Of a stretch of DNA of 23,768 nt, positions 6,691 through 23,562 are shown piece after piece (position 1 is the stretch's first letter; each line of letters starts with the position of its first letter). The translations under genes and the position numbers were made by a program. The notes beneath the pieces were generated by a model. The model ran no database searches. It was not told the DNA's origin and was given only the letters and a program-made list of their open reading frames with translations. The DNA comes from a virus: positions 1-23,768 of the IMG/VR virus record IMGVR_UViG_3300012954_000085; one strand, written 5' to 3'.

Positions 6691-8811
6691 TTAGTATCCG
6701 CTAGATTGTGGTGCTGAATATGAACTTGATGATGTAGTGGATGATGTAGTAGCTGACACACTCGTAACTGTTTTAGTAGTCACGATGGGGGTAGACGTAA
6801 TCAACTTACTGTTAGGACTGTGAGAAGAACCGGTCATCTTAGTCCCATCCGCCATAACGTGGAATGCGCCAAAGTATTTTTCACCATTGACATAACCAAT
6901 AAGTGTAGAACCGGCAGTAGTAGTTATAATGGTTCCACGAACCCTCTTATCAGGGAAGTAACTAGATTGTGAGATGAACCTAGAACCAGAACTGTTATTG
7001 CCTGTTGCAATACTGTCTACACGCATGAAGACATTACTCTTTGCCACATCAAACGAGAGATACATCTCATTCTTGGCAAGAATATCATTAGACTGAGGAA
7101 TTGCCTCAATTTCAATAACATTGTCGGGTTCGAGGGTAGAGGTAATATTGATTGTCTCCAAAATAACCTCACCCTTCATATAATCAATACGACCGAATTT
7201 AGAGTTGATTACTTGAACTCTGTCGTCATCAAGGATTTGGAACAAGAACAGATCACCTTGAGTCTCATCAATCTTATTATCAGAGAAGTAACATGTTCCC
7301 ACCACACCAGATACGTTGAATCCAGTTGATTGGATATTGTAAGAACCTTTGTTGCAATAGAAAGGATTTAGGAAACAAATTTCATATTGTGCAAACTGGT
7401 TGATTTTTGCAACCAGGTTACGACGCATCCTGACGAGAGTAATATTGGAAGTAATAGAAGTATCTACACCATCAATGGTTGATTGGATGCCACTATATTT
7501 GAATCTACCACTGAAACGATTGATTTCACGCCCTCCACCGTAAAGGGTCAAGGCACTGATAACGTTTGTCTTCAGATTATCAACATCCCCAATAAAGTTG
7601 CTGTTGTAGTAGACATAGGTATCAATCTCAACAAACAGGAAACTAAGATCTACAAAGGATGGGAGAATACCTGCGATTGAGTAATCCCGCAGAGATACTA
7701 GAAGTTGCTTCTTTGTCAAATCTGACAAGAAGAAACCATTCTTTGGTTTAGCAGCAATGAAGACTCGACCATACTGGGGAGGATTCAACTCCTCACCCCC
7801 GTAGGCGGACACAGACTCGATGTTTGGATAAATGGAGGGTAAGATTGCCTCATAGTCATTTGCCGTCACAGCGCGGTTCTGGGCGGCATACATGCGGGGT
7901 GCATAATACTTGACACTCTCCAAAGACTCAATACTGTCGCCATTCTGAGAGGGTGTATCAGTAAACAGATTGGCACTAAACCCACTCTCAGTCAAACCAT
8001 CCTGATCTTTTAGAGTGCCGACAAAATTGAAGAATCGAACACCATTTCCTGCCCTACCATTGGTCTTGATATAACCAACGGTAACTATATTACCTGACTG
8101 AAGTTTTTTGCCGAAAACATTGTCACCGAAAAGAATTTCATATTTCTCGTCGGTAGTTTCTTGTAGCAGGTAAATGTTAGATGTTGAAGTAATACCGATG
8201 ATACTTTCAACTAGACTGTATTCAGTTACAGTGTTATCGGATGAACTATTCCTTACCTTTACTGTAATCGTTGATGTATCAATACCATTATTAGGGAGAA
8301 TAAATCGCTGATTAGGAATTGAGTCGTTTACAGTAAATGAGTTTTCAAGATATTGACCTTGAAAAATTTCAACAGAAGCACCTGCCTCAGTGTCATTAGC
8401 AGGGAAGGTAACAGTTTCTGGTACGGAGAAGATATAATTTACATCAGAGACAGTGCCGTTAGCAATGACTCCAGGAGAGATACTGACTGTCTCAGTGGTA
8501 CTTGGAAGTTGGGAAATAGAAATATCTACGACCGCACGCGCCGCCCGGACAGAGCGAGGTACATAACCAATATTACGAGCAAGAGATACAACATTTTCCC
8601 TCAGCGTAGCGGAGTCGATGAATGTCTCATTCACCGCCATATTGGTGTTGTAGGCGGTGCTATATGAATTATACGCTAACAGATTGATTAGCATTGAGAG
8701 GTTAGACCCCTCAAAGTCCATATCTGTGAAGTTTGAGTTCTCCCTCAGATAATCTTTGATTGAGGTCTTGATGTCCTCAAAGTTTAGATTTGTAAATTGT
8801 GTTAGTGCCAT
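6691..8811 (-). CDS. 6: Baseplate wedge protein gp6
   Basis: This 706-aa protein is a T4 gp6-type baseplate wedge subunit, which in T4 forms the inner ring of the baseplate by dimerising around the hub. The N-terminus (FTNLNFEDIKTSIKDYL, then LINLLAYNSYSTAYNTNMA and ETFIDSATLRENVVSLARN) is the conserved start of phage gp6/baseplate-J proteins. A central region around residues 300-400 (MYAAQNRAVTANDYEAI) matches the family core. It is slightly longer than T4 gp6 (~660 aa) and ends in a low-complexity Ser/Thr tail of about 30 residues, which looks like a cyanophage-specific extension. Its ATG shares one base with the gp25 stop codon (TAATG), so the two are translationally coupled, and the giant structural gene follows 5 nt after its stop. 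The order gp25-gp6 is the T4 order. Confidence 0.95.
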   Translation of the reverse strand: MALTQFTNLNFEDIKTSIKDYLRENSNFTDMDFEGSNLSMLINLLAYNSYSTAYNTNMAVNETFIDSATLRENVVSLARNIGYVPRSVRAARAVVDISISQLPSTTETVSISPGVIANGTVSDVNYIFSVPETVTFPANDTEAGASVEIFQGQYLENSFTVNDSIPNQRFILPNNGIDTSTITVKVRNSSSDNTVTEYSLVESIIGITSTSNIYLLQETTDEKYEILFGDNVFGKKLQSGNIVTVGYIKTNGRAGNGVRFFNFVGTLKDQDGLTESGFSANLFTDTPSQNGDSIESLESVKYYAPRMYAAQNRAVTANDYEAILPSIYPNIESVSAYGGEELNPPQYGRVFIAAKPKNGFFLSDLTKKQLLVSLRDYSIAGILPSFVDLSFLFVEIDTYVYYNSNFIGDVDNLKTNVISALTLYGGGREINRFSGRFKYSGIQSTIDGVDTSITSNITLVRMRRNLVAKINQFAQYEICFLNPFYCNKGSYNIQSTGFNVSGVVGTCYFSDNKIDETQGDLFLFQILDDDRVQVINSKFGRIDYMKGEVILETINITSTLEPDNVIEIEAIPQSNDILAKNEMYLSFDVAKSNVFMRVDSIATGNNSSGSRFISQSSYFPDKRVRGTIITTTAGSTLIGYVNGEKYFGAFHVMADGTKMTGSSHSPNSKLITSTPIVTTKTVTSVSATTSSTTSSSSYSAPQSSGY

Positions 8812-9215
8812 TATAGCCTAGTAGGTTCAAGGATGAATGATACACTTTGAGATGGGGCGTTTTGTCCAACAATATCGTAAGAAATTGTCACCTCAAGACT
8901 GTTTGCGTCTGGTTCAGAAATAACATCAACCCGAGTCAATTTCACTCTAGGTTCAAAGTTAGTAATTGTTGTTTCAATCTCAGTTTTGATTGGATCGACA
9001 AAATCGCCGTCCGCTAGTTCAAAAAGAGCTCCCGTAATCCTAGTTCCCAGTAGGTTATTGAAGAAAACTTCGCCTAGTTGGATACGTACCAGGTTTTGTA
9101 CAGATCGCTTGATAGCGTCTTCATTCTTCAGAGGAATGATATCATTAGTAACTGGATGCCGTTTGAAAGACAGTGAAATGTCCTTGAATGGCAGCGATGT
9201 TCTCTGAAGAGGCAC
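8811..9215 (-). CDS. 25: Baseplate wedge protein gp25, lysozyme-like fold
   Basis: This 134-aa protein is a homologue of T4 gp25, which forms the core of the baseplate wedge with gp6 and gp53 and sits at the start of the sheath. The family hallmarks are visible. A short N-terminal strand region (LPFKDISLSFKRHP) precedes a conserved block with DAIKRSVQNLVRIQLGE, FNNLLGTRI and LFEL, followed by a beta-rich C-terminal half ending in SVSFILEPTRL. The length matches the family (about 130 aa). The start is a GTG at 9215 preceded by a weak TAGGT. No ATG gives a better N-terminus. It is the first gene of the late structural operon, about 25 nt downstream of a late promoter box. Confidence 0.95.
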   Translation of the reverse strand: MPLQRTSLPFKDISLSFKRHPVTNDIIPLKNEDAIKRSVQNLVRIQLGEVFFNNLLGTRITGALFELADGDFVDPIKTEIETTITNFEPRVKLTRVDVISEPDANSLEVTISYDIVGQNAPSQSVSFILEPTRL

Positions 9216-10303: not shown

Positions 10304-11518
10304 TTAGTACCCCGCAAGTTCGGGAAAAGTCTGTCTCCAATTGGTATTTCTTAGACTGTCAAGGTCATCAAAATACTTTTTCGCCTTTATCCATCCATTT
10401 GTTATTGGACTTTGCATCATCTGCTTAGCAACAGACTCATCTACACTTTTCACATCATCATAGATCTCTTCTTTGATGGGATGGGGCAAATTATTGACCC
10501 TGAGGTAATCTGGGTTTTCTAGGTTGTTATAGATCTGAAATGGACGTTTTTTGAGACCACGTTTTTCAAAAAACTCAAATACTTCCTTGATCTTGTAAAC
10601 AGACAAAACAGATGGAGTATATGTTCCTGCAATTGACCCCTTACCAGTCCTAAGGAAATACTCGCGTATTTCGTCCACATGACTCAAGGTCTGCTCCCAA
10701 TTAGTTGGATATCGCAAATAATAGTTCCTATCACCCAAACCATCACAACTCCACTGAATGTGGGTATAATTGAATCTATCAAGATATTTTTGCATCTGCT
10801 TCAAAGTAAATATCGTCATATTCGATACATACGACAAACTAATAGACCTTGACTTACCAGAACCAGCAAGAGCATCTAAAACCCTAAAATGGGATTTCAT
10901 TAGCATCGGTTCTCCACCACAGAAAGATATTGACTTGATACGATCTGCATTATCTAAAATGTCACTTATAATGTCACTAAATTGAGCTTGATCAATTTTT
11001 AGGAGATCTGTATCTGGAAACTTATTAGTTCTCGGATATCTCTTATCAAGATCTGCTAATTGCTCTAAACGTCTGTCTCTAGTCGTAGAATCTCCAGAAT
11101 GGCAACCATAGCATTCTAAGTTACAAGTATTACCATAAAAATTCAATTCTAGGTTCAGATTTCTTGCAGTGCCCGTATAACTCCCATCTTCGGCATAATG
11201 ATCTAAAATTTTGGGATCATACAACTCATTCATCAAACGAGGTGATGTACCAAAGTGTTTCTCCTTATAGAAACATCTTTGACACATTGCTTTGACATAT
11301 TCTGACATTTCACCAGCGAGCATTGCACGACGCAATTCTTTCGCCTCAGGACCATCATAATAATCAAATGGTGTCGTATTAGCAGGACCGACTAATTGTT
11401 GAGTTTGCATCCAACAGCATGGTGTATAACCATGCGACATTCCATTACGAATGTTGGTAAATGGATAAGAACAAAAAGAATTATTTTTTATGTCACTTAG
11501 AAGGTCTTCTTTCTTCAT
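10304..11518 (-). CDS. Radical SAM protein (twitch/SPASM-like, N-terminal extra cysteines)
   Basis: This 404-aa enzyme has the radical SAM signature CxxxCxxC at C132, C136 and C139 (NTCNLECYGCHSGD), which binds the 4Fe-4S cluster that cleaves S-adenosylmethionine. It also has the SAM-binding GGEP at 201-204. Before the core lie further cysteines at C16, C34, C35, C79 and C82 (YTPCCWMQ and AMCQRCFYKE), resembling a twitch/SPASM auxiliary-cluster domain placed N-terminally. I know this arrangement from a radical SAM family common in T4-like cyanophages. The substrate is unknown and could be a peptide or a sugar. I chose the ATG at 11518, whose first base is shared with the SGNH stop (TGATG). 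A GTG one codon earlier is possible. A hairpin follows the stop. Confidence 0.85.
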   Translation of the reverse strand: MKKEDLLSDIKNNSFCSYPFTNIRNGMSHGYTPCCWMQTQQLVGPANTTPFDYYDGPEAKELRRAMLAGEMSEYVKAMCQRCFYKEKHFGTSPRLMNELYDPKILDHYAEDGSYTGTARNLNLELNFYGNTCNLECYGCHSGDSTTRDRRLEQLADLDKRYPRTNKFPDTDLLKIDQAQFSDIISDILDNADRIKSISFCGGEPMLMKSHFRVLDALAGSGKSRSISLSYVSNMTIFTLKQMQKYLDRFNYTHIQWSCDGLGDRNYYLRYPTNWEQTLSHVDEIREYFLRTGKGSIAGTYTPSVLSVYKIKEVFEFFEKRGLKKRPFQIYNNLENPDYLRVNNLPHPIKEEIYDDVKSVDESVAKQMMQSPITNGWIKAKKYFDDLDSLRNTNWRQTFPELAGY

Positions 11519-12357
11519 CACTTAGGAAAAAAGTGCTTGAGTCCTGGATGTTCAATCATTTGACTTAGAATCCATTTTGCGATAGCAATATGACCATTTG
11601 CACTAGGATGCCATCCCCCTAACCACCTGTGAGTGTCTTCCTCATCACCAGTGGCAAATTCAGTCTTACGATCCCGCAAATCAAGAGTTCTGTACTCTCT
11701 AATCAATTCTTCTTCATTCATCCACCATGATGGGCAGATAGCATTAGTTTCTCCGGGATGGTAGTCCCTAGGAACGAATTCTTCTTGAGATGGAGTAACA
11801 CCTTTGATATCGCGGTTCTTGACTAACTCCATCCATGGACTGACACAATACTTGAGTTCTGTTTCAGTCCATTCCTCTAATTGCAAGAAGATATAAGGAA
11901 TACCCTTCTTCTCAAAGTAACTTTCAAGAAGAAACACATTTTTGAAGAAATTTTCAATATACTGGGTCCGGGACTTGACATTCTTATCCCACCACTCACA
12001 AATCCCAATTACTTTGTGATCTGGGTGACAACCATGGAAATGTTCGTACTGATCCATGCTATACCAGCGTTCATGCTCTTCACTATAGAACGCCCACCTC
12101 TGGGGATGAGAAAACTCGACAACTACGAGATCTGCTTCATTATTCTCACACCAAGTGACTGTATCACGGGTAATCTGATCATTTGAGTAACCAGAGTATC
12201 CAATATTGTCAAAAGTAACATTCAACCCATATAAGTCATTGACATACTCACTGACTACGTTTGAGTACCTCAGTTTGTCTCTAAGTTCAAGACTATGCTC
12301 CAGACCGTCTAATTCGGTGCCTTCGCAGAAGGAATCTCCGGAGAATAGGATTTTCAT
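11518..12357 (-). CDS. SGNH/GDSL-family hydrolase or acyltransferase
   Basis: This 279-aa protein has SGNH-hydrolase features. Block I is GDSF at residues 7-10 with the nucleophile Ser9 directly after strand 1. Block II is probably NIGYSGYSNDQ near residue 54, and block V is WHPSANGH with catalytic His at residue 250. SGNH enzymes remove or transfer acyl groups on sugars, lipids or peptides. There is no signal peptide, so the action is probably intracellular or virion-associated. Its ATG overlaps the carbamoyltransferase stop (ATGA) and its stop overlaps the radical SAM start, so the three are coupled. It differs from the plus-strand SGNH group in block I (GDS, not GCS). Confidence 0.75.
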   Translation of the reverse strand: MKILFSGDSFCEGTELDGLEHSLELRDKLRYSNVVSEYVNDLYGLNVTFDNIGYSGYSNDQITRDTVTWCENNEADLVVVEFSHPQRWAFYSEEHERWYSMDQYEHFHGCHPDHKVIGICEWWDKNVKSRTQYIENFFKNVFLLESYFEKKGIPYIFLQLEEWTETELKYCVSPWMELVKNRDIKGVTPSQEEFVPRDYHPGETNAICPSWWMNEEELIREYRTLDLRDRKTEFATGDEEDTHRWLGGWHPSANGHIAIAKWILSQMIEHPGLKHFFPK

Positions 12358-13733
12358 AATACAGTCACGTTATACTTGTTTGAAAAATCTAATGCATCAG
12401 ACCATTCGTTGACCATTGGCATGCCACGAATGTTCAGTGATGTATTTAGTAGCACTGGGCAACCTGTGCGCTCTTCCCACGCCTCTAGAATCGCCCTGAA
12501 GACCGATGGACTGGTTTCCGGTACCGTTTGCACTCTTGCACTATTATCGACGTGTACGCAGGCAGGAATGTCGTCTGGACGCTTACATTGATAGACATAA
12601 GACATGTACCGGGAATGTTCTGGCATCCAGAAGTAATCTTGGCAAGATTCCTCCAGAATTGCCGGAGCAAACGGTCTGAACTTCTGCCTCTTCTTGATTT
12701 CGTTGACTCGATCCTTATTTGCAAAGGTTCGGGGGTCTGCAAGCAAAGATCTGTTGCCTAGGGCACGAGGACCATATTCTGCCTTGCCATTTGCAACACC
12801 ACAGATACCATCCCTCAAAAGAACGTCTACAACCTCTTTGGGGTCGATTTTACGAGAAATACTGTGACCAGTATAAGGAGTGAACTCAACCTTCTTACCA
12901 GACGCCAATAAGGCAGCACCAAGTGCCCCACCGGCATCTCCTGGATTAGGCATGATCCATAGATTGCACTTATCCCGGAGTTTGGTGTTGGCAACGCAAT
13001 TTAGGGCAACTCCACCCCCATAACAAATATTATTGCTGTACTGCATTGCTATATCAAAAATAGCATGCAATTCTGTCTCCAGAACAACCTGTGCACTAGC
13101 AGCAACGTCTTCTTTGCTCTCAATGTCAAGTTGACAACCACGATGGTTGTTTTGTGACAGAAGTTGGCGAACTTCATCGATATGCTTCGGTTTTCCGAAT
13201 GCTGCCATACCCATGAAGATGTATTCCTCATCTAAAGGGCGAAGACCTGCCCATCCTGTCAATGCAGAGTACCAAAGACCAATAGACTTGGGATATGCCT
13301 GAGACCAGACCTTTTTATAGACTGCTTTACCATCTTCCATCTTTGCAGTCCATACAGAACTGCAATCCCACTCACCAATACTATCTACAACGACACATGC
13401 TGCTTCTTCAAAGCATGAAGTCTGAAATGCTGCCGCAGCATGCGATTGGTGGTGAGGAAAACTAATAGTTGGGCGTAATGCTAGATGTCGCCGCCTACGC
13501 CAGTGTTTTTGTCCAGCAAAAAATTGCCGAACACGTTTCGGGAACTGCTTCTCGTAAAAAGCAACTACGTCAGCATTTGGGTTGAGATAATTGCCGTAAA
13601 ACGCAAGTTCACCGCACAATTTCTTGTCATGTTTTTTCTTAGAATATCTTTCGCTGTGTGCAGCAAAGATAATCTTGTTTTCATGAACAACTGCTAATCC
13701 AGCGTCATGAAATCCTTCAGAAAAACCAATCAT
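12354..13733 (-). CDS. Carbamoyltransferase, NodU/CmcH/TobZ family
   Basis: This 459-aa protein is a NodU/CmcH-type O-carbamoyltransferase. These use carbamoyl phosphate and ATP, through a carbamoyl-adenylate made in the Kae1-like domain, to carbamoylate a hydroxyl group, often on a sugar. The family motifs are present. FHDAGLAVV lies at 8-16, ERYSKKKHD follows, HHQSH at 94-98 gives metal ligands, and the nucleotide-binding GGVALNCVANTKL and GGALGAALL come later. The C-terminal domain carries EYGPRALGNRSLLADPR and CPVLLNTSLN. At 459 aa it is shorter than many bacterial members (about 570), with linker regions compacted and the extreme C-terminus slightly short, but all catalytic motifs are present. 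It overlaps both neighbours by ATGA. The substrate is unknown. Confidence 0.92.
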   Translation of the reverse strand: MIGFSEGFHDAGLAVVHENKIIFAAHSERYSKKKHDKKLCGELAFYGNYLNPNADVVAFYEKQFPKRVRQFFAGQKHWRRRRHLALRPTISFPHHQSHAAAAFQTSCFEEAACVVVDSIGEWDCSSVWTAKMEDGKAVYKKVWSQAYPKSIGLWYSALTGWAGLRPLDEEYIFMGMAAFGKPKHIDEVRQLLSQNNHRGCQLDIESKEDVAASAQVVLETELHAIFDIAMQYSNNICYGGGVALNCVANTKLRDKCNLWIMPNPGDAGGALGAALLASGKKVEFTPYTGHSISRKIDPKEVVDVLLRDGICGVANGKAEYGPRALGNRSLLADPRTFANKDRVNEIKKRQKFRPFAPAILEESCQDYFWMPEHSRYMSYVYQCKRPDDIPACVHVDNSARVQTVPETSPSVFRAILEAWEERTGCPVLLNTSLNIRGMPMVNEWSDALDFSNKYNVTVL

Positions 13734-13861
13734 TCTACCTCTTCTGTTTCGTCGTCATCTAGATCCTCCTCCATATCATCAACCTCATAAATGAACGGAT
13801 CCATTTTGCGAATTTTCCAGAGATTGTATTCACCTTTGATCCAATACCAAAGACGGAGCAT
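13730..13861 (-). CDS. Small hypothetical protein (43 aa) with acidic tail
   Basis: This ORF is supported by a strong Shine-Dalgarno sequence (GAGGT, 5-6 nt before the ATG at 13861) and by a stop/start overlap (ATGA) with the carbamoyltransferase. The N-terminal half is Trp-rich and basic (MLRLWYWIKGEYNLWKIRK). The C-terminal half is almost all acidic (EEDLDDDETEEVE). It may be a leader that couples translation into the carbamoyltransferase. The function is unknown. Confidence 0.7.
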   Translation of the reverse strand: MLRLWYWIKGEYNLWKIRKMDPFIYEVDDMEEDLDDDETEEVE

Positions 13862-13891
13862 AATTACCTCGACAGCAGACTATGTATGTTA

Positions 13892-14782
13892 TCACTTTCT
13901 CCAGGATTCTGGCAAGTGCCCAAAATACTGCTTCCAATGCTCATAACATGGTTCTAAAAAGATTCCTGCCTTCTCACGGGCATGATCTGGTAGATGCATG
14001 ACATCAGACTCCCACTGGTCATTCAAATATTGGATATGTGGAGCACAGGGACCTAAATCTGGAACATATGCGTTTGGATGAACATCTCCAATCTCCATAC
14101 CGATAAAATCAGAAAGTGGAGCAGTATCACCTGCCCAAAAATCTTCCATGATCGTAATATGGACGGCATCCTCTCCAAAAGCAGCTGCCCATTTGATATA
14201 CATGTCCACATAGTCAAAATCCATGCCACACTTCAAAAAATGCTCGACAGGTTTGTCTCTTTTCTGTGCCTGACGACAAGACCAGAGTCTACGGAGAGGA
14301 TCTCGAAAAATAATGTGGATTTTTACGTCAAAATAACTCTGTAAGTGAAATGCCAAGAATTGTAGATATTCTGGAGAGCAATATCCATTAGGATTGCTAA
14401 AATCAGCAACTGCCTTATAATCATCCTTGATATTATCCCAATGCTTGAGATAATATTGAACGTATTTCTTCAATTCAAACGGAGGACCCCAAAAATACTC
14501 AATTTCTTCCTCAGACCACTTTCCAGCAACATAAGGAGATTCGTGAGTGAAAATTTTTGGTTTTCTCGTTGTTATTGACTTCCTTGACGGTCCAAAAAAC
14601 TTCTTGTAGAATTTTACTCTCTCAAAAGTGTTTTTATCTTCCTGCAATTGAAGCAACCACAAATATCCCTTCTCTTTGCGGTGACCTGCATGACAATACT
14701 TGTTATACCACCCCAAAGTGTAGTATAATGGAGTAGTACCGGACCATCCCGTTCCTACGTTCAAAAATAACGTGGGTTTCAT
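13892..14782 (-). CDS. Sulfotransferase-family protein A
   Basis: This 296-aa protein fits the PAPS-dependent sulfotransferase fold, which transfers sulfate from 3'-phosphoadenylyl sulfate to hydroxyl or amino groups. A P-loop-like 5'-phosphosulfate segment is GTGWSGTTP at residues 10-18, right after strand 1. The 3'-phosphate site is FRDPLRRLWS at 159-168 with Arg and Ser in the expected places. The C-terminal half ends in WKQYFGHLPESWRK. It has no membrane segment. It is clearly paralogous to the divergent gene at 14969-15946, sharing the first residues MKPTL and the C-terminus. Its ATG shares one base with the 51-aa gene stop (TAATG). The acceptor is unknown. Sulfation of a glycan is plausible from the context. 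Confidence 0.8.
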   Translation of the reverse strand: MKPTLFLNVGTGWSGTTPLYYTLGWYNKYCHAGHRKEKGYLWLLQLQEDKNTFERVKFYKKFFGPSRKSITTRKPKIFTHESPYVAGKWSEEEIEYFWGPPFELKKYVQYYLKHWDNIKDDYKAVADFSNPNGYCSPEYLQFLAFHLQSYFDVKIHIIFRDPLRRLWSCRQAQKRDKPVEHFLKCGMDFDYVDMYIKWAAAFGEDAVHITIMEDFWAGDTAPLSDFIGMEIGDVHPNAYVPDLGPCAPHIQYLNDQWESDVMHLPDHAREKAGIFLEPCYEHWKQYFGHLPESWRK

Positions 14783-14937
14783 TATTCACATGGTTCAATT
14801 CTGATGTCTTCGACCTTATAAGTAGTATTGATTCCTGCCATGATCATTCTTTGCATGGTAGTGCGAATCTCTTCTGCTTGTTCCTTTGAAATAGATTCAA
14901 AGATCATTTTCTTGTCTAGATAGACATCGTAAGGCAT
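14782..14937 (-). CDS. Small hypothetical protein (51 aa), first gene of the accessory operon
   Basis: The protein begins MPYDVYLDKKMIFESISKEQ. A longer frame exists upstream, but I chose the ATG at 14937 because a strong AGGGGGG Shine-Dalgarno run lies about 8 nt before it. It has the YD-[IV]-[FY]-[VL] opening plus a Glu-rich helix also seen in the 59-aa protein that ends this operon, suggesting the two are distant relatives. It is coupled to sulfotransferase A by a TAATG overlap. The function is unknown. Confidence 0.7.
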   Translation of the reverse strand: MPYDVYLDKKMIFESISKEQAEEIRTTMQRMIMAGINTTYKVEDIRIEPCE

Positions 14938-14968
14938 AAAAATTCCCCCCTGACGTATATAGTTTACC
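14938..14968. promoter_or_regulatory. Compact divergent intergenic region
   Basis: Only 31 bp separate the two divergent start codons at 14937 and 14969. It holds the AGGGGGG Shine-Dalgarno run for the minus gene and a TATATA core at 14956-14961 that is AT-rich on both strands. Any promoter for either operon must use this core or lie inside the opposite gene. No clear late box is present. Confidence 0.4.
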
Positions 14969-15946
14969 ATGAAGCCCACTCTGCTTTTGAACCCTGGTAC
15001 AGGTTGGTCTGCTACCAGTCCATTTCATTACACAGTGACGATGGAGAACCAGTATGCCCACATGGGGCATAAGAAAGAGAACTGGTACCTCAACTGCTTG
15101 CAACAAAATACCCCATCCGCTTGGAGGATGTTCGATACCTTGTGGGAAGGTACGCAATACAACGGTGGTAAACGACCACCCACGCATCCTTTTGGGAAAT
15201 ATTTGTCCCGAAGTAACCTTTTTATCGAAAATACGTCAACTGAGATTCTCCAAAAGACTCCAAAACACATTGATGGGTATATTGAATACTTTTTAGGTCA
15301 CTATGAAAACGTCAAAGAGACATATGCGGCAGTTTGCGACTTCTCGAACGCCAATTTTAGTCTTGACAGGGAATTTTTGTTGGGAATTGCTCCAAAACTT
15401 CGTGATCACTTCAACGTAAAGGTCACAATGCAGTTCCGGGACCCGGTTCGGCGCTATTTTTCCGAAGTTGGCAGTGTCTGTCAGCGAGAACTCGAAATTA
15501 TGGACGCATTTGGAGGCGATTTTGTCGCTTCTCGTTATGCTGCCAGAAAAAAGCACAAAAAACTCTTTTTCTGGAACCTAAAAAAGGATCGTTTGCCGTA
15601 TCACTGCGATTATACCGATGGTTACCTGAAATTTTGCGATGCATTTGGGAAAGAAAACGTTTATCCCATGGTTATGGAAGATTTTTGGAACCCAGATAAG
15701 GAAAAAGAAGAGTTAGAGCGTCTTTCTAACTTCCTAAATTACAAAATTACCAAAATTCATCATAATTGTTATGTCCCAGACATGGGAAGTAATGCACCTG
15801 AGTACGATTACCTCAAAGATCAGTGGTCAAGTGACATTGAAGACCTTGATGAAGAGGATATCAACGTTGCTGGAATGTATATGGGTCGCTTCTATAAGGA
15901 TTGGAAGGTTGTTTTCGATGAGTTGCCTGATTCATGGGGAAAATAG
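14969..15946 (+). CDS. Sulfotransferase-family protein B
   Basis: This 325-aa protein is a paralogue of sulfotransferase A, arranged head to head. The N-terminal segment GTGWSATSP (10-18) aligns with GTGWSGTTP, but its P-loop Gly and Thr positions are changed to Ala and Ser. The 3'-phosphate segment FRDPVRRYFS (156-165) keeps Arg and Ser. The C-terminus (WKVVFDELPDSWGK) also aligns with A. It is about 30 residues longer, with a Lys-rich insertion near residues 190-210. It may use the same donor, PAPS, on a different acceptor, or have reduced activity because of the P-loop changes. It starts the plus-strand accessory run. The window shows no Shine-Dalgarno sequence before its ATG. Confidence 0.78.
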   Translation: MKPTLLLNPGTGWSATSPFHYTVTMENQYAHMGHKKENWYLNCLQQNTPSAWRMFDTLWEGTQYNGGKRPPTHPFGKYLSRSNLFIENTSTEILQKTPKHIDGYIEYFLGHYENVKETYAAVCDFSNANFSLDREFLLGIAPKLRDHFNVKVTMQFRDPVRRYFSEVGSVCQRELEIMDAFGGDFVASRYAARKKHKKLFFWNLKKDRLPYHCDYTDGYLKFCDAFGKENVYPMVMEDFWNPDKEKEELERLSNFLNYKITKIHHNCYVPDMGSNAPEYDYLKDQWSSDIEDLDEEDINVAGMYMGRFYKDWKVVFDELPDSWGK

Positions 15947-15999
15947 AGTGCTACCAAGTCACCGTAATGACTTTGACCATATTCGCCAAACTATGTCGC

Positions 16000-16007
16000 G
16001 ATAAATA
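16000..16007 (+). promoter_or_regulatory. Late promoter-like box
   Basis: GATAAATA matches the NATAAATA late box of T4-like cyanophages. It lies 42 nt before the first tandem SGNH gene, in the 103-nt gap after sulfotransferase B. That gap holds nothing else I recognise. Confidence 0.5.
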
Positions 16008-16049
16008 CGGCAGGATACCACGATTACTACCTCCTCGTTATATCACAGA

Positions 16050-16838
16050 ATGACGCTAGTTACCTTTGGATGCTCTTGGACGTTTGGAGTTGGTCTCCAT
16101 TACGAAGAAGGGATGACTGAAATAGATTATCGCAAGAGCGGTAAGATGACCGATAAAGAAGTATCCAGAGAATATGCATGGAGAAGCATCCTTGCTGAAC
16201 GTTGGGGGATGGAAAATAAGAATTTTGCGGTAATGGGATCCTCAAATGAGAGGCAATTCCGTATGGCGACGAAATATTTTGGAGATTTGTCGAAACAGAA
16301 GTGTCAAAATACCACTGTCATATGGGCATTGACAGTTACACCACGCACAGAAGTGTGGTATAACTCAAAACAGGACTATGTAAACGTTCTATTTGGTAAT
16401 GGATGGGGTAAAGACGCTATGAAAGAGCGTGCACAATTCAATGTCAAGGAACATATAACCCATCACTACAATCATGAGCAAAAAGTTATCCTCTTATCGC
16501 AACAAATAAGGTTCTGGGACAAGTTTTTTGCTCTTGCTGGGATCAAAAATTACTGGTTGGATACTTTCAACCACCATAATTACGACTACAAGAGTCCTAA
16601 TATGCTTTTTGATGACAAACCTCAGCGGGATTTACTATCATTGAGATGTGCAGACCGTGGTTATGCTCCTAAAGCAGACGGATATCACGTTTCACAGTTC
16701 GCTGACAGCGATTCCAGCAGAGTTCCCTACCTCGTAAAGCAAGGTGATCTAAATCCATACTCATATCATCCAACAAAATCCTGCCACGCCTGGTTCGCTG
16801 ACAAAATTTATGACGAGATTGCTAACATTAGGGTGTAG
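16050..16838 (+). CDS. SGNH-family hydrolase-like protein 1
   Basis: This 262-aa protein belongs to the SGNH superfamily. After the first strand comes GCSW at residues 7-10, with Ser9 as nucleophile. The block II region MGSSNERQF is near residue 64, WALTVTPRTEVW forms the next strand and turn, and YSYHPT with His240 supplies the catalytic base. A segment shared with its relatives (FWDKFFALAGIKNYWLDTFN) marks it as part of the tandem family that follows. It has no signal peptide. Its last 29 nt overlap the start of the next gene, so the GCSW-coding strand of gene 2 is also the tail of gene 1. No Shine-Dalgarno sequence precedes its ATG. Likely chemistry is esterase or acyl transfer on an unknown substrate. 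Confidence 0.75.
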   Translation: MTLVTFGCSWTFGVGLHYEEGMTEIDYRKSGKMTDKEVSREYAWRSILAERWGMENKNFAVMGSSNERQFRMATKYFGDLSKQKCQNTTVIWALTVTPRTEVWYNSKQDYVNVLFGNGWGKDAMKERAQFNVKEHITHHYNHEQKVILLSQQIRFWDKFFALAGIKNYWLDTFNHHNYDYKSPNMLFDDKPQRDLLSLRCADRGYAPKADGYHVSQFADSDSSRVPYLVKQGDLNPYSYHPTKSCHAWFADKIYDEIANIRV

Positions 16839-17685
16839 TTGGGTAAAGGGAATCGGTGCTTCCTACGACAACACCAAAAAATACACAAGAGATGAGTATC
16901 GTAAGTTTAGTTTTGACAACGAACAACGCAAATATTCTTTTACGACGTTGTTGTGCAAGAAATATAAACTAGATCATGTTGATATTAGTGCAGGTGGAGC
17001 AGCAAATAACTCTCAAGCACGTAAACTAAAGAGGTATTTGCTTGCTAATGACCTGAATGACACTATTGTCATGTGGGGAATCACGTCAATCTATCGTGAT
17101 GAAATGTATTTTACCGATACTAAGAAACATCATTCGTTCCAACCTAACCAAAAAGTAGATTTACGTAAGACTGGTCGCAGCAATTGGTGCGGCCCTAAGG
17201 AACATTTCAATTTACACTTTGATGAGGAGATGGCAATATCCCTGTTGACATCAGATATTTGCCATTGGCAGAAACATTTTGAGTTAGCAGGTTGTGAACA
17301 GATGTGGTTTGACACTTTGAATACTATAACTTACGCAGAATACAGAGGACACTCACTCCATAAACCATTTTGTGAGATGCCCTACCCTTGCAATAAGGAT
17401 TTACTTAGTCAATTAGCATACAAGAATGGGTGGGATCCAATAGATGACAAGTATCATTCTTCAGATTGGAGAGCAGATTGTGATAGAATAAAACTATTAG
17501 AGCAAAAGGGAGTTGTAAATCCATACTCTTTCCACCCAACACGCCAGGGTCATGAGCAAATTGCGGAGATCCTTGACCCAATCTTTGAAAAGTATTATAA
17601 TAGACACAAAAGTAACAACCCAAATCCCAGTTTATACAAAACTTTGTGGCATAAATCATACCAAGTGAGTAATTACGATGACTAA
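16810..17685 (+). CDS. SGNH-family hydrolase-like protein 2
   Basis: This 291-aa protein is close to SGNH protein 3 (roughly half of residues identical by eye). Block I is LTLGCSW with nucleophile Ser10, block II is GGAANNSQ near residue 62, WGITSIYR is the block III strand, and YSFHPTRQGHEQIA carries the catalytic His242. Conserved positions shared with protein 3 include WCGPKEHF, LLSQLAY and SDWRADCDRI. It has a C-terminal extension of about 28 polar residues absent from protein 3. It overlaps gene 1 by 29 nt and gene 3 by 8 nt, so the trio is translationally coupled. The function is inferred only as an SGNH esterase or acyltransferase. Confidence 0.78.
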   Translation: MTRLLTLGCSWVKGIGASYDNTKKYTRDEYRKFSFDNEQRKYSFTTLLCKKYKLDHVDISAGGAANNSQARKLKRYLLANDLNDTIVMWGITSIYRDEMYFTDTKKHHSFQPNQKVDLRKTGRSNWCGPKEHFNLHFDEEMAISLLTSDICHWQKHFELAGCEQMWFDTLNTITYAEYRGHSLHKPFCEMPYPCNKDLLSQLAYKNGWDPIDDKYHSSDWRADCDRIKLLEQKGVVNPYSFHPTRQGHEQIAEILDPIFEKYYNRHKSNNPNPSLYKTLWHKSYQVSNYDD

Positions 17686-18484
17686 GTTACTGACTTTGGG
17701 GTGCAGTTGGATGGAAGGTGTCGGGGCTATGTACGTTCCGAACGTTCATAAGACATCCCAATTGTATAGCGATGTTTCACATAACCGAGAGTTGATGGCA
17801 AAATACTCTTTTAGAACTATTCTCTCAAAGAAGTATGGTTTTGAAAATGTCAATCTGGGTAAGGGTGGTGCATCTAATGGTTCGATGTTCCGTAGAGTGC
17901 TAACATACTTACGGAAAAATACTTTAGATGATACTATTGTCCTGTGGGGAATAACTTCTATCTACAGAATGGAGTTGTTTTTCAATCACTCGAAAGGGTT
18001 TTCGTCATTTCAACCAACACAAAGATCAAAAGCAAACTTACATGGTCCTGATTGGGTTGGACCAAAAGAATACTTTCGTCAACACTTCGATGAAAAAGTT
18101 CAACTAAACCACATGATCCGTGAAATATGTCATTGGCGGCACTATTTTGAGTTGCTTGGTGTTCCTCAACTATGGTTTCATACGTTGAATTACCCTGGAA
18201 TTGATTGGCGCAAAAAAGATGCTTTCCGAAACTTTGTGAAACTACCTTATCCTTGCAATAATGACTTACTAAGTCAATTGGCATATCATAATGGATGGAA
18301 TCCAAAGGATGATAAGTATCACTTTTCTGACTGGAAAGCAGACTGTGATCGTATTTCACATCTGAAAAAGAGGAAGATAGTCAACCCATACTCCTTCCAT
18401 CCAACTCTAGAGGGACATAAGCAAATCGCTGACATCCTTGACGCAGCAGTGAATAACTGTTATACTAACTATAAGGGAGTATAA
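17678..18484 (+). CDS. SGNH-family hydrolase-like protein 3
   Basis: This 268-aa protein is a tandem duplicate of SGNH protein 2. It has LTLGCSW with Ser10, KGGASNGSMF as block II, WGITSIYRME as block III, and YSFHPTLEGHKQIA with His241. The middle regions DDTIVLWGIT and DLLSQLAYHNGWNPKDDKYH are nearly the same as in protein 2, while the N-terminal loop after GCSW differs, which suggests a diverged substrate pocket. The gene begins inside the last codons of gene 2 (ATGACTAA overlap) and ends 7 nt before the DUF3310 gene. No signal peptide is present. Confidence 0.78.
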   Translation: MTKLLTLGCSWMEGVGAMYVPNVHKTSQLYSDVSHNRELMAKYSFRTILSKKYGFENVNLGKGGASNGSMFRRVLTYLRKNTLDDTIVLWGITSIYRMELFFNHSKGFSSFQPTQRSKANLHGPDWVGPKEYFRQHFDEKVQLNHMIREICHWRHYFELLGVPQLWFHTLNYPGIDWRKKDAFRNFVKLPYPCNNDLLSQLAYHNGWNPKDDKYHFSDWKADCDRISHLKKRKIVNPYSFHPTLEGHKQIADILDAAVNNCYTNYKGV

Positions 18485-18491
18485 CATTCTT

Positions 18492-18920
18492 ATGGCCGAA
18501 ATTCACGCAGACGATGAGTTTGGACTACCTCTTGATTTCGTAACTTCAAGAAACAAGATGAAAGAAGAAAAAGTAACTGACTCCATCACTATTGGTACAG
18601 GTGAGTCATTTGGTGCAGCACAACCTGTTCCTATGGATGGAATAATCTTCGGTGCTGAGGGTGCAGATGTTATTTCATTTGATATGAGTATTCCTGAAAA
18701 GCGTCCTCAACCCAAGAGTGCTAATTACAGTCATCCCGAGCACTACAATACCGGTAAGATTGAAGTATGGGACTTTGTTGCAGATCAAGGTCTTGACTTC
18801 TTTGCTGGAAATGTGGTAAAATATGTCAGTCGAGCAGGTAAGAAAGTGGGCGAATCTCGTCTCTCAGACTTACAGAAAGCTAGGACATACATACAGAAAA
18901 TGATTGATCTTTCGGCATGA
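18492..18920 (+). CDS. DUF3310 (nucleotide kinase-like) protein
   Basis: This 142-aa protein carries a C-terminal DUF3310 domain at residues ~78-142. The hallmark is HYNTGKIEVWDFVADQGLDF, followed by GNVVKYVSRAGKK and LSDLQKARTYIQKMI. DUF3310 proteins are small phage proteins sometimes annotated as nucleotide kinase-like. Their biochemical role is not settled. The N-terminal ~75 residues are acidic, lack recognisable motifs and are probably disordered. An AAGGGAG sequence in the end of the preceding gene may serve as a distant Shine-Dalgarno site. Its stop overlaps the next SGNH start (ATGA). It is an outsider within the SGNH run and may simply be co-expressed. Confidence 0.88.
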   Translation: MAEIHADDEFGLPLDFVTSRNKMKEEKVTDSITIGTGESFGAAQPVPMDGIIFGAEGADVISFDMSIPEKRPQPKSANYSHPEHYNTGKIEVWDFVADQGLDFFAGNVVKYVSRAGKKVGESRLSDLQKARTYIQKMIDLSA

Positions 18921-19552
18921 TCTTTGCGGGTTGTTCTTATACATGGGGTGATGAACTGAGGAATCGCCTGACTGAGCGATTCATCCATCATGTCTCTAAA
19001 CATTATAAGACTGAAGTTACAGATCTATCCCAATGTGGTGCATCTAATGACTTCATCGTAAATAGGGCACTGCATGAGATCAAGACTAATGGTGTTCAAC
19101 CTACGGTCTTGCAACTCACAGTGCCTACCCGCATTGAATACTATGCAGAAGATGGTCCACATCTATTCTGCCCCTATCGCTTCCGTCAAGATAACTCTAA
19201 CTTCAACTTTCGCTCTGGTAACAAGAAGAAAGTCCCACACTCCCTAGCAATGTCTTCCTACTACCGTTGGGTGTGGAATAAGACACATGGTGGGGAGAAT
19301 CTGTATAAGAACTTATTGTTATTTGAACAGTTTGCTAAGGTACACAATGTTCCTTACATTGTACTGTTCAATGATTGCGATCCACTAGCAGATCTTGGTT
19401 ATTGGCGTAACCTAATGGATGACTCTACGATGCATTGCATCTATAAGGATATCCTGAAGATTATCCAGACACCAGGTCAAGGTCATCCAAATGCACTGCA
19501 GCATAAGACTATTGCTGAGTATATTATTGCACACACGGACTTTGATTGCTAG
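18917..19552 (+). CDS. SGNH-family hydrolase-like protein 4
   Basis: This 211-aa protein is a shorter, more divergent family member. Block I is AGCSYTWGDE with Ser7. Block II is CGASNDFIVN. LQLTVPTRIEYY takes the block III position, and GHPNALQHKTIAEYI contains the probable catalytic His190. It lacks much of the middle insert (roughly 50 residues) of proteins 1-3. It is coupled to the DUF3310 gene by ATGA. The length is near the minimum for the fold but all expected catalytic positions are filled, so I regard it as probably active. The substrate is unknown. Confidence 0.75.
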   Translation: MIFAGCSYTWGDELRNRLTERFIHHVSKHYKTEVTDLSQCGASNDFIVNRALHEIKTNGVQPTVLQLTVPTRIEYYAEDGPHLFCPYRFRQDNSNFNFRSGNKKKVPHSLAMSSYYRWVWNKTHGGENLYKNLLLFEQFAKVHNVPYIVLFNDCDPLADLGYWRNLMDDSTMHCIYKDILKIIQTPGQGHPNALQHKTIAEYIIAHTDFDC

Positions 19553-19555
19553 AAT

Positions 19556-19563
19556 CTAAATAA
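19556..19563 (+). promoter_or_regulatory. Late promoter-like box
   Basis: CTAAATAA in the 34-nt gap before the small Cys protein resembles the CTAAATA/NATAAATA late boxes elsewhere in the window. The spacing to the ATG at 19587 is about 23 nt, as for gp25. No Shine-Dalgarno sequence is seen here. Confidence 0.45.
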
Positions 19564-19586
19564 TTCGATCAACTGCTGTTCTCCCC

Positions 19587-19856
19587 ATGAGAAAATGTGA
19601 GAAATGTGGTGCTACCTGGATGGAGGGTCAACTCTACTGGCAGGGTACTGGTAAACCGGGTAAAGATATAGATCTCGCTGGTTTAGTCTGTAATAATATT
19701 CAAACAGATGATCCAGACTACGGCAAATGCATCAATGCATCTAGAGGTAAATCAGGTGGTGATACTTGGGAATATCGTAGAGGGTTTCTTGATGGTGCAC
19801 TTGACTCCCTCAAAAAACAACGTGAGGACATGAGGGATAAATTTGGCGATCTCTGA
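19587..19856 (+). CDS. Small Cys-rich putative zinc-binding protein (89 aa)
   Basis: The protein opens with MRKCEKCGATWMEGQLYW, giving a CxxC pair at C4 and C7 typical of a treble-clef or zinc-ribbon start. C35 and C48 could complete a four-Cys metal site. The C-terminal third is a charged helix (LDSLKKQREDMRDKFGDL). Similar short CxxC proteins occur in cyanophages, but I do not know a function. It overlaps the next gene by 14 nt, and a GAGGG within its end appears to serve as the ribosome site for that gene. Confidence 0.7.
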   Translation: MRKCEKCGATWMEGQLYWQGTGKPGKDIDLAGLVCNNIQTDDPDYGKCINASRGKSGGDTWEYRRGFLDGALDSLKKQREDMRDKFGDL

Positions 19857-20646
19857 TACATTATTGGTTGTTGGTGGTAGATGGGCAGAAGGCAGAACTG
19901 CCGGATATGTTCATGGTCAATCTAAAAAAGAATGGTCACAACTCAATAATAACCCAGACTCCTGCCGCCACCTTCATTGGGGGGAACTACTAGGAATAAA
20001 ACATAACCTACATGTTGATTATATTGCCGAAAGTGATCAAACCAATGAAGAAGCATTCCTTAGAGTAACAGAATACTTACAGAGACCTCATAACCTCGTA
20101 GGAGTCATCTGGGAAGTACAACCAATATATCTCAAACGTATATACTCCAGTAAGACTGATTTTCGTAAATCCTGTAGTCCATATTTCCCAGAACATATCA
20201 AAGATCATATAAGATCTCATAAGATTGACTTTGACTATTACTTCGATAATTATATCGACCCAGCATGGGAAAGAACCTGTCTCCAAATGGCAATCGCCCA
20301 TTGGGATGAATACTTCAAACTAAAAGGCATACCTAACTATTGGTTTGATTCCTTATACGACTGTATTCACCCATGTCCACGTGGGATTCGTAAATGTTTA
20401 CTACAGGAACTCACTTGGGTCTGCTCCACCGATTATGAACTAAACGGTGACTGGCACCTCTGTTATAGAGATCGTAAAGACTATCCTCAGTTAGATCATG
20501 CAGTTACTGTGGGTCTAGTGGATCCATTCTTTCACTCACCTACAAAAGAGGGGAACCGGCGAATCGCACTCATCATGGAACACGTCTATAAAGACATCTT
20601 TCATAACCCTTATAACTATATTTCATACCCTCACCTTCGTGCATAA
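19843..20646 (+). CDS. SGNH-like protein 5, probable catalytically dead paralogue
   Basis: This 267-aa protein starts at a TTG (19843), the only usable start between the in-frame stop at 19831 and the first strand, with GAGGG six nt upstream. It aligns with SGNH proteins 1-3 over the whole length. The strand LLVV is followed by GGRW at 11-14 where the others have GCSW, so the nucleophile Ser is Arg. WDEYFKLKGIPNYWFDSLYD matches WRHYFELLGVPQLWFHTLNY of protein 3. DPFFHSPTKEGNRRIA aligns with NPYSFHPTRQGHEQIA, putting Ser232 at the His position with a His one residue earlier. Both catalytic positions are changed while the scaffold is kept, so a binding or regulatory role is more likely than hydrolysis. 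Confidence 0.75.
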   Translation: MAISDTLLVVGGRWAEGRTAGYVHGQSKKEWSQLNNNPDSCRHLHWGELLGIKHNLHVDYIAESDQTNEEAFLRVTEYLQRPHNLVGVIWEVQPIYLKRIYSSKTDFRKSCSPYFPEHIKDHIRSHKIDFDYYFDNYIDPAWERTCLQMAIAHWDEYFKLKGIPNYWFDSLYDCIHPCPRGIRKCLLQELTWVCSTDYELNGDWHLCYRDRKDYPQLDHAVTVGLVDPFFHSPTKEGNRRIALIMEHVYKDIFHNPYNYISYPHLRA

Positions 20647-21258: not shown

Positions 21259-21357
21259 ATCACTGTCCCTGAGTGATACTAACTGTCCGTGGCAGTTTGT
21301 GTCAGATAGTGGGCACGATTGGTGTGAGGTTCTTGATGCTTACTGTGTGCCCACTAT
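21259..21357. other. Three consecutive hairpins, candidate structured RNA
   Basis: The first stem is ATCACT/AGTGAT (21259-21264 with 21272-21277, 7-nt loop). The second is AACTG/CAGTT (21281-21285 with 21293-21297, 7-nt loop). The third is a perfect 11-bp pairing ATAGTGGGCAC/GTGCCCACTAT (21306-21316 with 21347-21357) closing a 30-nt loop. No ORF overlaps it convincingly, and I match it to no known RNA family. Confidence 0.5.
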
Positions 21358-21484
21358 GTGTCTCTCAGTGTCTCCTAGTTTCCTCCTTGGTTGTTATCCG
21401 AATCATAGCAGTGATTTCTCCCAGTGACTGTCAGAAATGTGCCAGTTCGTAGACTGTCTAAATGTCACTAACTGTTCGACTGTT
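21262..21484 (+). repeat. Recurring ACTGTY hexamers
   Basis: ACTGTC occurs at 21262, 21282, 21427 and 21453, and ACTGTT at 21471 and 21479, all in the same orientation. Six copies in about 220 bp of otherwise unique sequence is far above the roughly 0.1 expected. The spacing is irregular. Confidence 0.45.
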
Positions 21485-22436: not shown

Positions 22437-22703
22437 TCAAAGATCTTTCATCATTTCGTTCACTTCGTCGCGGTTGATTGTTTCATCATCCCAACGGAAT
22501 CCATCACCATTTACTTCACGTTGGCAGTTATTCATGCAGCGAATAAATGCATCATAAGGTGTGTCACATGTCTCACAATATGTCACACATGCCTTGGCAG
22601 TGTTATAAAGAAACTCATCATTTTGCATCCACAAAGTAACATTCCAGGTGGCACGATTTGCCCAACCGTTGTAAGTTTGTGTCTCGGTGGTGTTAGTGAA
22701 CAT
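22437..22703 (-). CDS. Hypothetical protein with YNGWANRATWNV motif (88 aa)
   Basis: I chose the ATG at 22703. A TTG extends the frame to 22805 but would place the conserved promoter repeat inside the gene. The motif YNGWANRATWNVTLWMQND at residues ~10-28 is characteristic of a small phage family common in cyanophages (I believe DUF7249, not verified). Its function is unknown. The remainder has four Cys (CVTYCETCD and CMNNCQ) and an acidic C-terminus. It is the first gene downstream of the operator/promoter module at 22720-22787 and has no Shine-Dalgarno sequence. Confidence 0.75.
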   Translation of the reverse strand: MFTNTTETQTYNGWANRATWNVTLWMQNDEFLYNTAKACVTYCETCDTPYDAFIRCMNNCQREVNGDGFRWDDETINRDEVNEMMKDL

Positions 22704-22719: not shown

Positions 22720-22787
22720 ACTTGTGAATACAATAGACCAGATGGCGGGTCAAAAACATATCTTGTGACACTTATCCTAGTGGCACA
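22720..22787 (-). promoter_or_regulatory. Operator/promoter module copy 1
   Basis: On the minus strand, an inverted repeat with one mismatch (22764-22787, half-sites TGTGCCAC and GTGTCACA around 8 nt) is followed 27 nt later by CTATTGTATTCACAAGT (22720-22736). TTGACC (22748-22753) and TATTCA (22725-22730) are 17 nt apart and could be the -35 and -10. The start codon is 16 nt further. The same layout recurs at 23495-23562. Confidence 0.6.
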
Positions 22788-22801
22788 GAATATCGTTTTT
22801 A

Positions 22802-23014
22802 TCAATCATTTATGGTAGGTGTTTCTAGGAGTGATTGATCATATTCTTCAACCTCTGCAATCAGTTCATCGATTGTATAACTCTCTAGAACATATTCCAT
22901 ATGATCGTAGATATATTGCACCATTGATTTCTCATCCATTCCTTCTATCAATTCCTTGATATATCTGTCCGTGATAAGATCACGGTCGATGATGTTATCA
23001 TTTACAGAAGTCAT
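22802..23014 (-). CDS. Small acidic hypothetical protein (70 aa)
   Basis: This is a strongly acidic all-helical protein. It begins MTSVNDNIIDRDLITDRYIK and contains LIEGMDEKSMVQYIYDHMEY and ELIAEVEEYDQSLLE. The pattern RYIxxLIxxMDxKxxVxYIYD is one I recall from small conserved cyanophage proteins of unknown function. Its ATG overlaps the stop of the preceding gene (ATGA at 23011-23014), so they are co-translated. It ends 15 nt before operator/promoter module 1. Confidence 0.75.
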   Translation of the reverse strand: MTSVNDNIIDRDLITDRYIKELIEGMDEKSMVQYIYDHMEYVLESYTIDELIAEVEEYDQSLLETPTIND

Positions 23015-23196
23015 TTTGTTGCCTCCTCATAGACTTCATAAAACATATTCCATGCCTTTAGATCATAAACAAAAGAATCAATTTCTGTCTGGTCACTAAC
23101 CCAATCATATGCCATATCAATGTCGGCAGATGTATCAAGGATGAAGGATTGCAACCCTTCAAGTGCATCCAAGAATCGTGGATTGTTGTAGATCAT
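23011..23196 (-). CDS. Small acidic hypothetical protein (61 aa)
   Basis: I prefer the ATG at 23196 (MIYNNPRFLDALEGL) because it is preceded by a leader like that of the 115-aa gene, namely AGTAACACTAAC, then 21 nt, ending in CATCATG. A longer form from 23235 (74 aa) would overlap the preceding gene by 7 nt and is also possible. The protein is acidic and helical with Trp/Tyr (AYDWVSDQTEIDSF, WNMFYEVYEE). It is coupled to the 70-aa gene by ATGA. The function is unknown. Confidence 0.65.
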   Translation of the reverse strand: MIYNNPRFLDALEGLQSFILDTSADIDMAYDWVSDQTEIDSFVYDLKAWNMFYEVYEEATK

Positions 23197-23217
23197 GATG
23201 TTACTTAGAGAATGTTC

Positions 23218-23229
23218 GTTAGTGTTACT
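23218..23229 (-). repeat. Leader repeat copy 3 (AGTAACACTAAC)
   Basis: This 12-nt sequence is identical to 22419-22430 and lies 21 nt before the preferred ATG at 23196. It touches the stop codon of the 83-aa gene, so it begins the spacer between the two genes if the 23196 start is right. Confidence 0.55.
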
Positions 23230-23480
23230 CAGCATGCCATACCCATGGCGGAATTGTATAACTGTGGAATCATCTCACTATTTGTTACTTTATACTCATA
23301 TCCTTCAATTCTAGAATATACCTCACGGCGGAAGTCTTTCGCATTGATGTATCTCTTAGATTGTGCAGATCCCATAAAAGTAACAACCTTGAGCATCAAT
23401 CGATTGTGAATCTCACCGGTTGCAAACTTCACCGGATAGAAGTCAACAACCATATTACCATTTTTGGATGTGAGTTGCAT
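23229..23480 (-). CDS. Hypothetical protein (83 aa)
   Basis: I chose the ATG at 23480 (MQLTSKNGNMVVDFYPVKF). A GTG extends the frame to 23561, but that would cover the operator/promoter repeat. The core has two beta strands, then KRYINAKDFRREVYSRIEGYEY. It is basic and soluble, and I recognise no family. The second operator/promoter module lies 14 nt upstream of the ATG, the same position as for the 88-aa gene, so the two are likely co-regulated. Confidence 0.65.
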   Translation of the reverse strand: MQLTSKNGNMVVDFYPVKFATGEIHNRLMLKVVTFMGSAQSKRYINAKDFRREVYSRIEGYEYKVTNSEMIPQLYNSAMGMAC

Positions 23481-23494
23481 TGGTTGATCTCTGA

Positions 23495-23562
23495 ACTTGT
23501 GAATACAATAGCAAAAATAAATGACTGTGCTCATTATATGTGCCACTAGAACATGTGGCACA
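23495..23562 (-). promoter_or_regulatory. Operator/promoter module copy 2
   Basis: On the minus strand, a perfect inverted repeat TGTGCCAC-N8-GTGGCACA (23539-23562) is followed after exactly 27 nt by CTATTGTATTCACAAGT (23495-23511), identical over 17 nt to module 1. TATTCA (23500-23505) again lies in the -10 position, but the -35 position (ACAGTC) is poor, which suggests help from a factor bound at the inverted repeat. Confidence 0.6.

Follow-up and report, generated by a model that had tools for sequence, protein, structure and literature searches.

Two sites in the 23,768-base IMG/VR virus record analysed here (the window) are, with a probability that we put near 0.78, units of one promoter class used across T4-like cyanophages. 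That each site is an operator-promoter, with a palindromic operator held at a set distance from a -10 element, we regard as highly probable. The minus strand of the window carries T4-like baseplate genes, with a gp25-like gene at 8811-9209, and the best DNA matches are to myoviruses of Synechococcus and Prochlorococcus.

Read on the minus strand, each unit consists of the palindrome, 27 nt, a C, TATTGT and an ATG 14-16 nt past a 17-mer that the two units share. Operator A (22764-22787) reads TGTGACACTTATCCTAGTGGCACA on the plus strand and TGTGCCACTAGGATAAGTGTCACA on the minus strand, has one arm mismatch and scores 37.5 bits; operator B (23539-23562), TGTGCCACTAGAACATGTGGCACA on the plus and TGTGCCACATGTTCTAGTGGCACA on the minus strand, is a perfect 24-bp palindrome scoring 38.7 bits in the module scan. 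The 17-mer, CTATTGTATTCACAAGT on the minus strand, is present in identical copies at 22720-22736 and 23495-23511. Within these copies lie the minus-strand -10 elements, TATTGT at 22730-22735 for unit A and at 23505-23510 for unit B, each 28 nt past its operator. Transcription would start on the minus strand at 22723, an offset taken from the module alignment, and at 23498, 12 nt from the first -10 base of unit B, where the initiator consensus is R-T. The 17-mer is separated by 16 nt from the ATG at 22703 of gene A (22437-22703, minus strand; 88 aa, DUF7249/phrog_871) and by 14 nt from the ATG at 23480 of gene B (23229-23480, minus strand; 83 aa, phrog_500). An earlier note on this DNA had described one perfect palindrome and one with a single mismatch, and both were borne out to the base, together with its 27-nt gap, its identical minus-strand 17-mer and its distances to the two ATGs.

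This arrangement is not expected by chance. Two exact 17-mers occurred in none of 100 shuffles, and the shuffle mean was 0.14 even with 3 mismatches allowed; the loose palindrome pattern appeared 0.74 times per shuffle at 3 mismatches, whereas the window sites match it with 0-1. Further copies, for which the earlier note had advised a search, were found both in the isolate genomes described below (113 sites) and in the window itself. The window copy, operator C (TTAGACAGTCTACGAACTGGCACA, 21438-21461, minus strand), is weaker at 30.3 bits; TATGAT (21402-21407) lies 30 nt past it. The minus-strand region after it (21270-21400) has no obvious ORF and contains an 11-bp stem, ATAGTGGGCAC...GTGCCCACTAT. 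It is possibly a small RNA; it had no Rfam match, and its fold was not clearly better than those of shuffles.

The earlier note spoke of a duplicated module and named, as an outcome that would count against it, the origin of both sites in one recent duplication of the whole segment, with the linkers also alignable. The 17-mer, identical in both copies, would fit such an event. The linkers, which the note had rightly called unlike in sequence, agree at 7 of 27 positions against 7.5 in shuffles, and the flanks outside the motif cannot be aligned. The genes behind A and B are from separate families, phrog_871/DUF7249 for A and phrog_500 for B, and in other genera the same module precedes genes related to gene B. 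With unrelated linkers and different downstream genes, a recent duplication is therefore excluded, and we give it practically no weight. The word "duplicated" is misleading, since the two sites belong to a promoter class that is widespread.

The breadth of this class emerged from a scan of IMG/VR viral contigs for TGTGNCAC-N8-GTGGCACA. At least 120 viral stretches match the palindrome pattern, and several of these carry between three and six sites in 10 kb. In 288 oriented metagenomic flanks, TA[T/C]NNT peaks 28-30 nt from the palindrome (49, 55 and 22 occurrences, vs about 3 at most other offsets), a peak that was found without a distance limit and that coincides with the position of the -10 element of unit B. 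Modules were then defined as palindromes with a -10 element sought at 28-31 nt, which yielded 412 non-redundant modules, 262 of them below 75% identity. Their operator consensus is TGTG[A/C]CA[C/G]TT-N4-AA[C/G]TG[G/T]CACA, 24 bp in length; within the 28-31 nt that were searched, the spacing between operator and -10 element has its mode at 29 nt, and the -10 element is TATAAT or TATTNT, often extended. A good -35 element is usually lacking, with TTGA at -23 from the -10 element in only 39 of 320 modules. Between operator and -10 element, the module alignment shows nothing conserved that would correspond to the MotA box near -30 of T4 middle promoters. A purine-T dinucleotide (+1/+2) is conserved 12-13 nt from the first -10 base and, judging by its position in the alignment, would mark the transcription start, which would place the centre of the operator at about -53.5. 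With the module as a marker, putative early promoters of uncultured cyanophages can be annotated.

A matrix trained on the metagenomic modules only, applied with a cut-off of 20 bits, recovered 113 sites in nine T4-like cyanophage isolates, compared with 0-0.25 per shuffled genome. All nine genomes carry the module, with 6-24 sites each: S-CRM01 has 24, S-PM2 18, P-SSM2 17, S-E7 12, P-HM1 11, S-SSM5 and S-RSM4 9 each, S-CAM8 7 and Syn9 6. At the same cut-off, the matrix found no site in T4, in HTVC008M (a Kyanoviridae phage of SAR11), in the three other cyanophages Ma-LMM01, P-SSP7 (a phage of Prochlorococcus) and PSS2, or in 0.4 Mb of the host Synechococcus WH7803. Several hundred metagenomic sites, along with the 113 from isolates, support the earlier proposal of a dimeric regulator's site at a fixed distance from a -10 element; the position of -57 that came with it gives way to a probable centre at -53.5.

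The modules precede small genes. An ATG ORF follows 91 of the 113 isolate sites, at a median of 84 nt from the 5' end of the operator (IQR 81-87), and the ORFs behind the isolate sites have a median length of 86 aa. The sites cluster among small ORFs, in a region where helicase and dam genes are found too; in P-HM1, this site-rich region lies immediately before gp25/gp6. Modules in different genera stand before related genes, namely gp32, helicase, CobS, a CobT-like peptidase, DUF6267 and phrog_500, the last being the family of gene B, whose look-alikes in P-SSM2, S-E7 and S-SSM5 carry the module too. No structural gene was identified among the recurrent targets. In S-CRM01, the modules at 127441, 134497 and 149101 precede tRNA clusters, which suggests a regulon that includes phage tRNAs along with the other module genes.

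A palindrome ahead of a gene may also act as RNA, forming a stem-loop that terminates the upstream transcript or marks a site for its processing. The fold of operator B has an energy of -12.9 kcal/mol, and two palindromes of S-CRM01 (HQ615693), at 125862-125891 and 154634-154661, are annotated as rho-independent terminators. Module linkers also fold better than shuffles, 37% vs 16% reaching -6 kcal/mol or below, with a GC-rich, terminator-like hairpin between operator and -10 element in a subset. This hairpin signal comes from the linker and not from the operator. Across the module set, the free arm positions of the palindrome show no covariation (5/20, p 0.34; 8/17, p 0.20), and the palindrome letters themselves are fixed, which argues for recognition as DNA rather than for an RNA hairpin. 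Examined for the marks of a rho-independent terminator, the modules showed variable sequence in place of a T-run right after the palindrome and no compensatory arm pairs; the distance to the -10 element is fixed as well. We consider a role as RNA very improbable, and the module evidence contradicts the terminator label on the two S-CRM01 palindromes.

Our proposed mechanism begins with a dimeric protein that would bind the two-fold symmetric 24-bp operator near -53.5. The bound dimer would help the host sigma70-type RNA polymerase to start at a conserved -10 element that usually has no good -35 element beside it, so that transcription would begin some 15-25 nt upstream of a small phage gene. 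In some units, the linker hairpin may end the previous transcript and the unit start the next. A dyad near -55 in place of the -35 element is also the design of the late promoters served by P2 Ogr and P4 delta, in which the dyad is TGT-N12-ACA; the half-sites of the module and their spacing differ from these. The data show the sequence, its geometry and conservation, the lack of arm covariation and the restriction to phages; from these we infer protein binding, activation over repression, early timing and a phage origin of the regulator.

The sign of the regulation can be argued in either direction. Early genes have to be transcribed at a time when no new phage proteins are yet available, the modules have good host-like -10 elements, and host promoters frequently lack a -35 element, all of which would suit a phage repressor that shuts early genes later, with host polymerase alone starting at once. 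The operator, however, lies upstream of the core site of the polymerase, a placement that simple blocking does not need; nor does blocking call for the 28-31 nt distance or for a better half-site on the promoter side. The promoter-proximal half-site is the stronger in 81 of the 113 isolate sites, a bias that perhaps comes partly from scanning with an oriented model and that the seed set, collected with a symmetric pattern, shows as well. The tight spacing and the stronger promoter-proximal half-site favour contact with the polymerase and, along with the usual lack of a -35 element, fit an activator that touches it. Marine cyanobacterial promoters often lack a -35 element, so its weakness here is poor proof of activation, and the strength of the operator showed no trade-off with the match to a -35 element (rho -0.09, p 0.11). 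Given the operator, we think that the regulator is probably an activator, and we rate repression as rather unlikely.

Early use would require a factor that is present at infection, either a protein of the host or one that the virion brings in. A host regulator of the CRP/NtcA family, or another host global regulator, might bind the site and be exploited by the phage: an early element needs a pre-existing factor, and the absence of sites from HTVC008M, as host dependence predicts, leaves room for a cyanobacterial factor. TGTGA, found in one variant of the module half-site, resembles the half-site of CRP (TGTGA-N6-TCACA), a likeness that the earlier note had remarked on. It does not extend further, since the module operator spans 24 bp rather than 16, with the half-site TGTGNCAS, a different half-site spacing and a position of -53.5. 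The note was right to set NtcA aside, as GTA-N8-TAC is absent, the letters differ and the centre probably lies at -53.5 instead of near -41.5.

The host genomes also speak against a host regulator. The exact palindrome occurs 12 times in 151 host-family genomes (2 for a control pattern), with a -10 element in place at only one of the 12; by eye, some of these copies are GC-rich and some lie near an excisionase/PIN-like gene pair. No enrichment upstream of host genes, as would mark a cyanobacterial regulon site, was found in the 151 genomes or the 0.4 Mb of WH7803, and even the sensitive model has no site in the latter or in P-SSP7. The near-absence from hosts and the absence from the scanned cyanophages of other families indicate a phage factor. 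A host regulator is accordingly unlikely in our estimate, and a regulator that is phage-encoded or virion-carried seems a reasonably good bet. More tentatively, T4-like cyanophages, which are without MotA, AsiA and Alt, may run their first genes by means of their own dimeric activator that replaces the -35 element. Such an activator might, equally tentatively, enter with the virion or be synthesised immediately, and read the 24-bp operator.

Gene-content comparisons among cyanophages gave no convincing candidate for this regulator, and neither did the families present in most cyanophages yet absent from HTVC008M. Ten small proteins compared with PHROGs and Pfam produced one transcription-regulation match (phrog_385), too weak to name a regulator. 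A gene profile that treated S-RSM4 and S-CAM8 as module-less was invalid, because the sensitive model found the module in both; a simple dyad search upstream of -10 elements is insensitive because the arms vary independently. The precise operator, its geometry and the genome-wide list of sites make the missing regulator directly testable.

The design of this promoter itself has probably been reported before. Doron et al. 2016 reportedly described, in Syn9 and P-TIM40, a novel regulatory element of early genes that is said to be abundant and conserved among T4-like cyanophages. The window module is quite likely the same element, which would make the window sites further members of a known one. 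Like that element, the module is conserved, here in all nine isolates and at least 120 IMG/VR stretches, and it precedes small genes in what is likely the early region, also in Syn9, where sites lie at 48558, 51000 and 52996. The half-site variants, the lack of covariation, the linker hairpins and the near-absence from hosts come from the present analysis. Among the papers citing Doron et al. 2016 that a limited literature search covered, none prints the motif letters. Early and middle control in T4-like cyanophages was called unclear in the review of Mann and Clokie (PMC2984593), and the motif search of Sullivan 2010 covered only sigma70, late, Pho and NtcA motifs (PMC3037559). The cyanophage MarR system (PMC9692554) is a different case, from a T7-like phage and with its site downstream of the start. 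T4-like cyanophages are very common viruses of ocean photosynthesisers, and their early takeover proceeds without the T4 toolkit.

The linker hairpins may be of the type found in PeSLs. These promoter-terminator cassettes, described for other T4-like phages (Arbiol 2010; Comeau 2014), are said to join a stem-loop to an early promoter. Where its linker folds, the module may likewise combine the two compactly amid small variable genes; unlike a PeSL, it has a conserved, predicted protein operator 5' of the unit. PeSLs were judged sparse in S-PM2 (PMC4503421).

A second type of half-site, [C/G]TGTCCAC or, on the other arm, GNGGACA, recurs in Syn9 (43113 and 47204), P-HM1 (36482-37140) and S-RSM4 (138853-140150), and may represent a subclass or a related regulator. 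Elsewhere in the window, the stretch from 10304 to 20646 holds, by eye, non-structural ORFs that are radical-SAM-, carbamoyltransferase- and sulfotransferase-like, along with several GDSL/SGNH-type paralogues, a block that is unusual for a baseplate neighbourhood.
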